This document shows, piece after piece, positions 11,475 through 31,991 of a DNA stretch of 42,176 bases (within the stretch, counting starts at the first letter, position 1; each line of letters begins with the position of its first letter). The notes beneath the pieces were generated by a model. The model was not told the DNA's origin, made no database searches, and saw only the letters and a program-made list of their open reading frames with translations. The stretch spans positions 140,883 to 183,058 of the forward strand of contig JAPLWK010000008.1 of NCBI GenBank assembly GCA_026396615.1, in the 5' to 3' direction. The DNA is from a candidate division WWE3 bacterium (GTDB lineage: Bacteria > Patescibacteriota > WWE3 > JAPLWK01). The position numbers and the translations under genes were made by a program.

Positions 11475-12029
11475 ATGATTTCCAAAGAAAAAGAGTTAAA
11501 AAAGATAGCGGTTAACATCGCTTCCTGCCGTCTTTGTCAGCAAGGCATGTCGGGTCTGCCAGTTCCCGGTGAGGGCGCGGTCAACGCAAAACTAATGTTT
11601 ATTGGTGAAGCGCCTGGGGTTGAGGAATCTAAGACCGGAAGACCTTTCATCGGTCGCTCTGGAAAATTGTTGACCCAGATTCTGGCTGAAATCGGTCTAA
11701 AACGCGAAGAGGTTTTTATCACTTCTCCGGTCAAATACTTTCCCGGCCGCCGCGCTCCCACTTCTCAAGAAATCGATCACGGCAGAACGCACTTACTAGC
11801 ACAAATAAAAGTTATTCAGCCAAAATTTATAGTTCTAATGGGAACCACGGCCGTTAAGGCTTTATTACCAGACGAAACTTTTCATGCGGTTAAAGATCAT
11901 GGTCGCGTCGTCACTCAGTCCGGTCAAACGTACTTTCTCACCTTCCACCCCGCCGCCGCCCTGCGCTCCCCTAAAATTTGGGGTGGGTTAATGCGGGCTG
12001 ATTTTAAGAAGCTATTAAAATTACTCTAG
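11475..12029 (+). CDS. Uracil-DNA glycosylase, family 4-like, with two iron-sulfur ligands missing
   Basis: 184 aa. Motif 1 is GEAPGVEE (44-51), followed by TGRPFIGRSGKLL, and the His158 motif TFHPAAALR: all typical of family 4 UDG. These enzymes remove uracil from DNA. Family members bind a 4Fe-4S cluster with four cysteines. Here C18 and C21 are present, but aligning VKYFPGRRAPTSQEI with the usual VKCRPP.NR.PTPEE puts Tyr88 and Gly103 where the other two cysteines belong. The residue after the usual ITN also differs (ITSPVK). So the fold is secure but the cluster is doubtful. Operon with recA; the 3' end overlaps the convergent ABC-F gene by 9 nt. Confidence 0.88.
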   Translation: MISKEKELKKIAVNIASCRLCQQGMSGLPVPGEGAVNAKLMFIGEAPGVEESKTGRPFIGRSGKLLTQILAEIGLKREEVFITSPVKYFPGRRAPTSQEIDHGRTHLLAQIKVIQPKFIVLMGTTAVKALLPDETFHAVKDHGRVVTQSGQTYFLTFHPAAALRSPKIWGGLMRADFKKLLKLL

Positions 12030-12734
12030 CGATTCATTTTCGAAATAAGATAACGCCCCTGCTTTAAGGTTAAGTACTTTATTAACCCCCACACTTTCCA
12101 CGAAATAACGATCGTGCGAAACGAGTAGCAACGTTCCTTGGTATTTTCGTAAACTATCTTCTATAACTTCCTTGGTTTCAATATCTAAGTGGTTATCCGG
12201 TTCATCTAGTATTAGCAAATCGTAATCTTTATGGGCAAAAATGGCGAAGGCAAAACGAGCTCGCTCCCCGGGGCTTAATTGCCAAATTCTTTTAGCAATA
12301 TCGTCTTTATTAAATAAAAATTTGCTTAAATACCCTTTAGCATCATAAAAAAAGCAATTAGTACTAGCCGTAAAAATCTCTTGTAAATTTCGATTATCTG
12401 TTCCTTCTTTATCCATATGTTGCACTTGAGCAAAGTAACCTAGTTTCACGTTGTCGCCAATCTTTACCTCTCCAGAACTTGTTAGCTCCTCGCCCATAAT
12501 CATTTTCACCAAAGTAGATTTACCAGCGCCGTTGGGGCCAAAGAGCCACAGTTTTTCCTGACCGCGGAGTTCAAAATCTAAATTAGTAAACACCCGATTT
12601 TTTCCGTAAGCCTTAGCCACGTTACTGCAACGGACCATAAGCTTCCCCGGCCGAATGTCGGTCGCGAAATTTAAGCCCTTTATCTTTTTAGAAACGTATT
12701 CTTCTTTCGGCTGGCTAGTTACTTCTCGCTCCAT
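12021..12734 (-). CDS. ABC-F ATPase, C-terminal half (second nucleotide-binding domain)
   Basis: 237 aa with Walker A GPNGAGKST (67-75), signature LSPGERARFAFA, Walker B LLILDEPDNHLD (usual EPTNHLD, here D for T) and switch LLLVSHDRYF. It begins MEREVTSQPKEEYVSKKIKG, which reads as the linker of an ABC-F protein and not a natural N-terminus. The ATG lies 20 nt inside the preceding half-gene in another frame. Removing one A from GAAAAGAATGG at the junction would fuse the halves as ...QEKMEREV.... ABC-F proteins bind the ribosome E site (translation or antibiotic protection). It may still be made by translational coupling. Confidence 0.85.
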   Translation of the reverse strand: MEREVTSQPKEEYVSKKIKGLNFATDIRPGKLMVRCSNVAKAYGKNRVFTNLDFELRGQEKLWLFGPNGAGKSTLVKMIMGEELTSSGEVKIGDNVKLGYFAQVQHMDKEGTDNRNLQEIFTASTNCFFYDAKGYLSKFLFNKDDIAKRIWQLSPGERARFAFAIFAHKDYDLLILDEPDNHLDIETKEVIEDSLRKYQGTLLLVSHDRYFVESVGVNKVLNLKAGALSYFENESLE

Positions 12735-13401
12735 TCTTTTCTTGGCAGAGCACGTATTCTTCGTTCCACTTGTCGATCAGCTTTAACTTTTGGGTACGAT
12801 AATTATCATAATCACCTACAAATTGGTACAGCTTTCCTGCTTCGATTTCCCAAATTTCATCTACTGTGTGATTTAGAAACGAGCGGTCGTGGGAAATCAT
12901 AATCACTGTGGCCGGCAGAGTTTTAACGTAATTCTCAAACCACATAATACCTTCGATATCTAAGTGATTGGTAGGCTCGTCTATAAATAATGTCGTTGGG
13001 TTCTTTAGTAAGACTTCAATTAACTTCACTCTCATCTTCTGCCCCTCGCTCATGGTTTTAACATTTTGCTGGGGATCATAATTAGTAAATTCCAGTTGCG
13101 TTACCAATTTATCAATCAGATAATATTCCCAAGAGCCATCAAGACTTGATTCTAAATACTCGGCCACCGTTATATTGGGGAAATCAAATTCTTGAGGAAT
13201 GTAGCCAATCACCTCGTTTTGAATATCGAGGCCTCCGGCGGTTGGCTCTTCAATGCGGTTAACGATTCTAAATAACGTTGACTTGCCACAGCCGTTGCGT
13301 CCTACCAGACCAATTTTCTTGCCGTTACCGAGTTTAAAATCCACTCCGTTTAAGACAAAAACATCGCCATATTTTTTAGTGAGATTTTTAGCCGTAATCA
13401 C
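12715..13401 (-). CDS. ABC-F ATPase, N-terminal half (first nucleotide-binding domain)
   Basis: 228 aa from a GTG start. Walker A is GRNGCGKST (34-42), followed by signature MSEGQKMRVKL, Walker B TTLFIDEPTNHLD and switch VIMISHDRSFL. The C-terminus YRTQKLKLIDKWNEEYVLCQEK matches the start of the ABC-F inter-domain linker, then runs into six residues (NGARSN) and a stop. With the second half it would form one ABC-F protein of about 460 aa with a short linker. GTG is preferred because a -10 box ends 6 nt upstream. Confidence 0.85.
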   Translation of the reverse strand: MITAKNLTKKYGDVFVLNGVDFKLGNGKKIGLVGRNGCGKSTLFRIVNRIEEPTAGGLDIQNEVIGYIPQEFDFPNITVAEYLESSLDGSWEYYLIDKLVTQLEFTNYDPQQNVKTMSEGQKMRVKLIEVLLKNPTTLFIDEPTNHLDIEGIMWFENYVKTLPATVIMISHDRSFLNHTVDEIWEIEAGKLYQFVGDYDNYRTQKLKLIDKWNEEYVLCQEKNGARSN

Positions 13402-13454: not shown

Positions 13455-13982
13455 TCAATCGTTGGGGTTTTGTTCAATGTAATATTGAAGAATCGCTAGT
13501 TCTTTTTCGTTGCGAATAATTCTTTCGAAGTAACTCCTTTGCCACAGATCAATCGATTTATCTTTTAAAAGTAGACGAACTTGTTTTGTCATCTCAGACT
13601 TGAAAGACCCAACAATGCTTCCAAGCGTAGGGGCGTGGCATGCCGCGCCCGCAATCTCGATTATAAAATGAAGGTGACTAGGCATAATCTGAAAGGTGTT
13701 TAATGAAACGGGATAATGATCTGGTATATTTTTCCAAACATTCTCAACGATTTTACCGAGGCGACTTGGGAGAAATATCTTTTCGGTTGCGGGCTGGGCA
13801 TGCCCAGCCCCTACGATCGATTTTTGTGGTCTCAAGTTGCCGTCAACTATATTTCCAAGAATACACCTTCTATTTTCCACGCAAATCGTCACGAAATAAT
13901 ACCACTCTGTTGAATAATCAACTCCAGGTAATCTTAAAAGCTTTCGCTTAGGTCGAATCACTCGATCATATTTATCCAGCAC
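13455..13982 (-). CDS. REP-associated tyrosine transposase (RAYT, IS200-like Y1 family)
   Basis: 175 aa. Recognisable landmarks: PGVDYSTEWYYFVTICVENRRCILG, MPSHLHFIIEI (HxH metal-binding pair), IVGSFKSEMTK, LWQRSYFERIIRNEKEL and ILQYYIEQNP, which carries the probable catalytic tyrosine. RAYTs are single-copy relatives of IS200/IS605 TnpA that process REP palindromes. It lacks the usual W after the final NP, so may be a few residues short. Two REP-like palindromes lie inside the coding sequence in opposite orientation and are translated in frame (IVGAGHAQPA and GAACHAPTLG). Confidence 0.9.
   Translation of the reverse strand: MLDKYDRVIRPKRKLLRLPGVDYSTEWYYFVTICVENRRCILGNIVDGNLRPQKSIVGAGHAQPATEKIFLPSRLGKIVENVWKNIPDHYPVSLNTFQIMPSHLHFIIEIAGAACHAPTLGSIVGSFKSEMTKQVRLLLKDKSIDLWQRSYFERIIRNEKELAILQYYIEQNPND
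13627..13650 (+). repeat. REP-like palindrome inside the RAYT gene (copy 1)
   Basis: GTAGGGG head (13627-13633) followed by the inverted repeat GGGCGTGGCA / TGCCGCGCCC (13631-13650), one mismatch. On the coding strand it encodes GAACHAPT. Same head as the repeats near 31314, 31991 and 13814. Confidence 0.75.
13791..13814 (-). repeat. REP-like palindrome inside the RAYT gene (copy 2)
   Basis: Perfect 20-bp palindrome GGGCTGGGCA / TGCCCAGCCC (13791-13810) followed by CCTAC, that is a GTAGGGG head on the minus strand. It is in the opposite orientation to copy 1 about 165 bp away, so the two form a REPIN-like inverted pair. It encodes VGAGHAQPA. Confidence 0.8.
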
Positions 13983-14024: not shown

Positions 14025-14795
14025 ATGACCGGCGAAAAATCTTCATTATCAACGGAAGAAGATAAAACTGCTGATGGTAGTCAAAATACTGTTGAGGCTG
14101 GTGAGGTTCCAAAATTGACTTTTCGGATTCCCACCGCCGACGAGGAATTTAATCGCTTGTGGTGGACAGCTAATCGAGTCGAACACTACAAAGAAACTCA
14201 TGCTAACTTAGTTTGGCCGAATAACGAGGAGTTGCGATCTTTAATGACGGGTTTTCCTAAGTTAAAAGCCGGTACTAAAGACAAAATGCGAGAAGTTTTT
14301 TCAAGTAAGGTTTATTCTGCGGAAACCTATCAACGTAGTGTAGCCGCTCTAGAGGAAGCCCGACCGACGATTGAGGCAGCTTTTCCAAGATTTATCGATT
14401 TAGCAAATCACTGGGGCGTTAACTTTCCAAATGAAATTGAAATTACTGTTACCGCTTACGGAACTGGCGGTAATTTTAACGCTAAAACAGGCCATATAAA
14501 GGCGCAAATAAACCCAGAAAACAACTTTAATAATCGGGGTAACCCTGCTCATACACCTCTTCATGAGATTGTCCATATTTTAACGGACGAAGATATTGCA
14601 GCAAGATATAATCTGTCTTTTGATGAACGTGAGCGATTAGTCGATGATGTTGTAGTAGCTTTGTGTAGTGATTTAGTTCCCGATTACTTTCGTAAACATC
14701 CAGATGGTTCACAAATTGACCCCTACGCCACTGCCGAAACTTTGGATTTTTTACCAGATTCAATCGCTAAATACGTGAAAGATTTTCCCCGTTAA
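14025..14795 (+). CDS. Predicted zinc metallopeptidase (HExxH), family not recognised
   Basis: 256 aa, no signal peptide or membrane segment, so probably cytoplasmic. PLHEIVHILTDEDIA contains His180-Glu181-x2-His184, the zincin motif, and FDERERLVDDVV about 20 residues later could give the third ligand (gluzincin-like). An acidic, low-complexity N-terminus (about 1-28) precedes the domain. Repeated residues such as ITVTAYGTGGNFNAKTGHI form a beta region before the helix, as in many zincins. Single gene with its own promoter, divergent from the RAYT gene. Substrate unknown. Confidence 0.7.
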   Translation: MTGEKSSLSTEEDKTADGSQNTVEAGEVPKLTFRIPTADEEFNRLWWTANRVEHYKETHANLVWPNNEELRSLMTGFPKLKAGTKDKMREVFSSKVYSAETYQRSVAALEEARPTIEAAFPRFIDLANHWGVNFPNEIEITVTAYGTGGNFNAKTGHIKAQINPENNFNNRGNPAHTPLHEIVHILTDEDIAARYNLSFDERERLVDDVVVALCSDLVPDYFRKHPDGSQIDPYATAETLDFLPDSIAKYVKDFPR

Positions 14796-31313: not shown

Positions 31314-31383
31314 GTAGGGGCGGACCTGCGTGTCCGCCCTCAATCCGATTTGGGTGAGGGTCGACACATAGGTCGACCCCTAC
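31314..31383. repeat. REPIN-like element: two inverted REP hairpins
   Basis: 70 bp bounded by GTAGGGG (31314-31320) and CCCCTAC (31377-31383). Inside are the hairpins GGGCGGAC/GTCCGCCC (31318-31339) and GGGTCGAC/GTCGACCC (31358-31379). Layout and heads match RAYT-mobilised REP doublets. It lies between the small 68-aa gene and the broken HD gene. Confidence 0.8.
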
Positions 31384-31968: not shown

Positions 31969-31991
31969 GGTTTTGCAGGCAAAACCCCTAC
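31969..31991. repeat. REP-like hairpin at the lysS stop
   Basis: GGTTTTGC-AG-GCAAAACC (31969-31986) followed by CCTAC; on the minus strand a GTAGGGG head. The lysS TAG stop is part of the head sequence. Confidence 0.75.

Follow-up and report, generated by a model that had tools for sequence, protein, structure and literature searches.

Are the two palindromes inside this RAYT gene there by chance, for the sake of the protein that they encode, or as REPs in their own right? The gene lies on the minus strand of the window, by which we mean the whole stretch of 42,176 nucleotides that was analysed. The reading that we favour, with a probability of roughly 0.6, is that two copies of the gene's own REP type lie within it, in frame and in surface loops, and act as a captive substrate linked to the enzyme. 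The features on which the argument turns are as follows.

13455..13982 (-): RAYT gene (TnpAREP-like Y1 transposase), 175 aa, running from a GTG start to a TGA stop; from ORF, Pfam and fold
13455..13457 (-): TGA stop, in the alignment column where relatives have the conserved W of their W-x-x-D-R-N-N tail
13479..13481 (-): Tyr168 codon, invariant in alignments A1 and A2
13626..13654 (+): embedded REP 2, with its head at 13627 (GTAGGGGCGTGGCATGCCGCGCCCGCA) and a single mismatch in the stem; codes for A111-T119, all of the loop from the HuH strand (103-110) to helix 120-139
13668..13676 (-): HuH motif H103-L104-H105; from alignments A1 and A2
13787..13815 (-): embedded REP 1, with its head at 13814 (GTAGGGGCTGGGCATGCCCAGCCCGCA) and a perfect stem of 9 bp; codes for V57-A65 in loop 1, which joins strand 43-46 to strand 69-72

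A RAYT gene with palindromes in two loops

An earlier note on this DNA had called the gene a RAYT, and profile and structure comparisons support the call. The ORF at 13455-13982 (-) matches Pfam PF01797 (Y1_Tnp) at 7e-8, and H103, H105 and Y168 are invariant in both alignments, Tyr168 being the presumed catalytic tyrosine. The best model for the ORF was NCBIfam NF047646 (REP_Tyr_transpos), whose score of 57.5 bits lies below the curated cut-off of 80 and above the IS200 score (28.2). AlphaFold2, given 30 aligned relatives, produced a model with a mean pLDDT of 83, which Foldseek matched to IS200-type TnpA structures and to 4er8, the structure of a RAYT in complex with a REP hairpin. The E. coli TnpAREP of that entry shares with the window protein the HuH-Y fold (E 2e-6, TM 0.55-0.58; profile match 1.7e-6) and GTAG-headed REPs. 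In E. coli, however, the REPs flank the gene, according to the available part of PMC6006769, whereas here they lie inside it.

Two GTAGGGG palindromes do lie within the coding sequence, in frame and inverted, as had been noted from the outset. On the coding strand REP 1 reads GTA GGG GCT GGG CAT GCC CAG CCC GCA, giving VGAGHAQPA, and REP 2, in the opposite orientation, encodes AGAACHAPT. The inverted arms (13626-13654 and 13787-13815) are 29 nt each and 86% complementary. They had been described as standing head to head, which is wrong: the pair stands tail to tail, with the GTAG heads outermost. The placement of both palindromes in variable loops held when they were mapped on the AlphaFold2 model. 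Loop 1 (47-68) is modelled with low confidence, residues 49-60 having a pLDDT below 50. Loop 2 (111-119), all of it REP-encoded, links the HuH strand to the following helix. The two REPs occupy separate loops, 132 nt apart with the HuH codons in between, which rules out a single inserted REP pair.

GTAGGGG occurs nine times in the window against 3.5 expected, and none of 100 shuffles reached nine. Two of these heads are isolated: one at 14720-14726 (-) without a palindrome, and one at 31985-31991 (-) where a hairpin is present but not the tail usual for REPs.

The window RAYT may be decaying, or its specificity may have altered, with H, H and Y still there. Possible decay is suggested by three features: S102 precedes HuH at a position where nearly all aligned relatives have N, the TGA comes early, and no REPs flank the gene within about 13 kb on either side. 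Relatives run about a dozen residues beyond the position of the TGA, and recognisable tail residues are found in the DNA past it (profile-match row G000:C8:154310-154840). Since TGA terminates 3 of the 25 long open frames of the window, it is probably a stop for the RAYT.

REPs of the source genome

In the 825,990-bp source genome the pattern GTAGGGRN{6,16}YCCKCR has 77 matches, and the reversed pattern has none. We could place and classify 76 of the 77. Twelve classified copies have CCCGCA, the tail type of the window REPs, and one of these, at C8:196759, has a near-identical stem. The suggestion that the embedded palindromes are REPs is supported: they belong to a REP family of this genome.

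All four RAYT genes of this genome carry embedded REPs. Eight of the 76 classified REPs fall within 2,766 bp of RAYT coding sequence, where 0.25 would be expected (P 2e-10). The three paralogues of the window gene, L002-L004, also have flanking REPs and so qualify as REPtrons. When the embedded REPs of a gene were compared with its flanking REPs, the type agreed 27 times out of 28 (P 3e-5 by permutation), on types A-D that were defined by REP head and tail after the sequences had been seen. The embedded pair of L003 has its heads inward and that of L004 outward; on an uncounted reading of the match list, each is the orientation usual for dispersed pairs of the respective type.

REPs also lie in other long ORFs of the genome (C6:9063/9101, C6:21730-22100, C6:24544, C4:11828 and C10:87146). 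Embedding is therefore not exclusive to RAYTs, which counts against the captive-substrate reading. A 14-kb stretch (G000:C6:12500-26900) is unusually rich in REPs, several of which fall in long ORFs (875 and 453 codons).

Embedding among related RAYTs

A profile of ten RAYTs gave matches in 45 of 379 genomes of the phylum, which we infer to be Patescibacteria from genome size and from one named relative (Buchananbacteria). Comparison of the window protein with named contig records returned only four relatives. In all, 84 distinct ORFs matched the profile, and 23 partial ones, including a split RAYT in genome G055, were left out. The remaining 61 full-length ORFs comprise 57 from whole genomes and 4 from named records (L055-L058). 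Poly-G hits (L055) and GTGG-only hits were excluded from the analyses of stem identity, core similarity, loop mapping and flank density.

At least one GT[AG]G hairpin was found in 50 of the 61 ORFs, against 4.5 of 61 expected from codon-order shuffles. Together with the reversed pattern in the source genome, the shuffles rule out chance palindromes. A credible REP lies in the conserved core of 46 ORFs, usually in the loop leading from the HuH strand to the helix after it, and is absent from 15; the 46 are the 47 with a hit anywhere in the core minus L081, whose A+T-rich hit is not credible. Nine of the 61 were seeds of the profile and all nine have core REPs; with the seeds removed, the count is 37 of 52. 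When cleaned hits were mapped to profile columns, a REP fell in the HuH-to-helix loop in 45 of the 61 ORFs and in loop 1 in five. Embedding is the rule among the surveyed relatives of the window RAYT and no oddity.

These counts bear on whether the palindromes could be a by-product of the protein, with Gly/Ala/Pro-rich loops having converged and their codons being palindromic by accident. The loops are indeed rich in G, A, P and H. Codon shuffles, however, fall far short of the observed number, and related RAYTs hold their palindromes in differing frames and with differing residues. We give such convergence virtually no credence and take protein-level conservation or convergence to be refuted. 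Relatives that conserve the same residues with non-palindromic codons, which the earlier note had named as the finding that would tell against it, were not found; the palindromes stay and the residues differ.

The surroundings of the genes bear on another explanation, in which REPs insert often near a RAYT gene and the survivors, in-frame copies in loops, are tolerated passengers under no selection. Loops without a REP are generally shorter (10-34 residues in 13 of 16, against mostly 20-107 with a REP), as passengers would lead one to expect. REPs are likewise found within other coding sequences, both in the source genome and, according to the available part of PMC3733652, in other bacteria, and PMC6006769, as far as it was available, suggests that such insertions may have little effect on protein activity. 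One RAYT of G055 consists of two 103-aa frames split around the loop 2 REP (L128, G055:C1:358000-361500). This is apparently a REP insertion that broke the gene, so insertions are not tolerated every time. The density of REPs does not fit mere tolerance: there are 71 in 38.3 kb within the ORFs and 55 in 164.4 kb of flanks, which makes embedded REPs about five times denser, and for 22 of the 47 ORFs that carry embedded REPs no further REP was found up to 1.4 kb outside the gene. Nor do the near-perfect stems (score of at least 8 in 88 of 96 scored hits, both palindrome strands counted), or the persistence of sole copies in two genomes, described below. We consider unselected passengers a rather unlikely explanation.

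Persistence of the palindromes as DNA

Two REPs of the same gene had a mean stem identity of 0.77 (36 pairs). The mean fell to 0.44 for REPs of different genes in one genome (85 pairs) and to 0.38 across genomes (2,654 pairs). Ten of the 36 within-gene pairs stem from a single ORF, L056, a 564-codon open frame in an Aquidulcis record, which includes a RAYT together with five REPs, all of one family. Embedded REPs of 25 genes resembled the REPs flanking the same gene (identity 0.72) more than those at random loci (0.39; maximum of 1,000 permutations, 0.48). In genome G076 four RAYTs have four different stems, each of which is present elsewhere in that genome.

L089 and L090, from the same genome, have cores that are 73% identical and REPs in the same place and frame, but their stems differ. 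Conversely, three pairs of RAYTs that are 53-55% identical have an exact 28-29 nt REP (double-foot) in common in unrelated loop contexts, and RAYTs of different genera share identical REPs. REP similarity correlates only weakly with core similarity (r 0.25; 0 of 5,000 permutations). Across relatives the palindromes persist while the encoded residues, reading frames and stems vary. This persistence, and the identical REPs in RAYTs of 53-55% identity, speak for the DNA rather than the protein being kept or renewed at embedded REPs, judging from sequence comparison.

Two genomes argue against renewal from copies elsewhere, barring a recent arrival of the gene. In G295 (99% complete) and G298 (98%) the embedded palindrome is the sole palindromic match to GTAGRGRYN{9,15}RYCYC, a result bound to that pattern, which could miss REPs of other make-up. 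The stem carried only by the RAYT in G295 has at least seven exact copies dispersed in G231 among the matches listed, and the two RAYTs detected in G231 carry other stems.

Persistence of this kind could also reflect autoregulation. Selection would then keep the REP hairpin as a binding site for the RAYT, within the RAYT's mRNA or transiently single-stranded gene, through which the RAYT limits its own expression or activity. Survival of the palindromes through stem changes is consistent with such a role, as is the persistence of perfect palindromes in G295 and G298, where no other palindromic copy was found from which they could be renewed. The RNA fold of the window segment spanning both REPs is strong as well (-71.2 kcal/mol, z -5.5), with the 29-nt arms paired. 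An inverted repeat, however, folds well whatever its role. Taken singly, the window REPs gave z-scores of -2.4 and -0.8, the latter no better than shuffles, and palindromes of the same type are scattered at non-RAYT sites. On balance we think autoregulation unlikely.

The earlier note had also proposed a compact mobile unit; on that reading the embedded REPs would let the RAYT gene, or the segment between them, move. One part of this stands: an embedded REP would travel with its gene, as the 22 of 47 ORFs without an outside REP and the sole copies in two genomes suggest. Joint transfer of gene and REP would also fit the sharing of identical REPs across genera. The pair itself does not fit the proposal, however, since the gene extends beyond both REPs instead of being bounded by them. 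From one head position to the other is 188 nt, which is no multiple of three, and excision of this span would shift the frame. Mobility by means of the pair therefore seems very improbable to us.

Comparison with published RAYTs

In-frame REPs in tnpAREP genes were already described in PMC6006769 (BMC Genomics 2018, 19:475), so we reject the idea that the phenomenon is new. The available part of that paper names, as the unique feature of TnpAREP subclass 2.4, REPs that have inserted into the tnpAREP gene, generally between HuH and Y; they lie in a peripheral region and leave the frame undisrupted. The RAYTs studied here agree with this subclass in having in-frame REPs mainly between HuH and Y, of canonical and double-foot types, a variable insertion between beta3 and alphaC, a WQ motif (present in the window protein) and no C-terminal extension. 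In the window, REP 2 (A111-T119) is such an insertion between HuH and Y. The window protein differs in its HuH motif (SHLH, against the consensus NH[IFV]H), in its Y motif (YIEQNP, against YIxNNP) and in its HuH-Y distance (about 65 aa from H103 to Y168, against a median of 88). It differs further in having a second embedded REP, in the loop before HuH, and no flanking REPs. On the strength of the insertion, and with a departing HuH consensus and HuH-Y distance, we think that the window RAYT likely belongs to subclass 2.4.

The available text of PMC6006769 does not mention Parcubacteria, Patescibacteria or Saccharibacteria, and that of PMC8266576 does not mention embedded REPs. PMC3733652, in the part available, reports short palindromes, REPs and Rickettsia palindromic elements alike, that have inserted into coding sequences in frame. 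Its hosts are unrelated genes (uvrA, uvrB, dnaE, recB), whereas here the host is the RAYT itself, at a recurrent site and with its own REP type. We recognised no further account of REPs embedded in RAYTs beyond PMC6006769 in a search of titles and abstracts. As far as these searches show, what is new here is the count in another genome set, the second site before HuH, the match to the gene's own REP type, and the embedded REPs that are sole copies. A published but little-followed observation is thus extended to another set of genomes, in two of which the embedded copies are the last of their kind found.

A proposed captive copy of the recognised REP

The captive-substrate reading would work as follows. 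The RAYT, or an ancestor, may have put REP copies into its own gene; REPs cluster around RAYT genes, which suggests that a RAYT acts near its own gene. In-frame copies in the two loops would have been tolerated by the protein. They would then outlast copies outside the gene, since imprecise loss would destroy the gene, and would constitute a captive substrate linked to the enzyme that recognises them. The density of REPs near RAYTs may, on the other hand, reflect local insertion alone.

More tentatively, the coding sequence could serve as the master copy of the recognised REP. Carrying it would be the normal strategy of this RAYT lineage and no accident, with specificity inherited and transferred jointly, and the palindrome would be a label of the enzyme's REP family. 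We find this extension possible but somewhat doubtful.

In practical terms, the embedded REP offers a candidate cognate palindrome that can be read from the gene alone in 46 of the 61 ORFs. Such a guess at the cognate makes the co-evolution of RAYTs and REPs testable, and pairs like L089 and L090 mark where stems have changed.

Other features of the window

A further REP pair, GTAGGGGCGGACCTGCGTGTCCGCCCTCA and GTAGGGGTCGACCTATGTGTCGACCCTCA, lies at 31314-31383. It is of a subtype with a longer loop, whose relatives lie at C8:197543 and C9:3050, and only short open frames run across it. Two ABC-ATPase ORFs, of 237 and 228 aa, lie at 12021-13401 (-) in different frames, with an overlap of 20 nt. 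Together they look like two ABC-F halves, and a frameshift or a split gene is possible.
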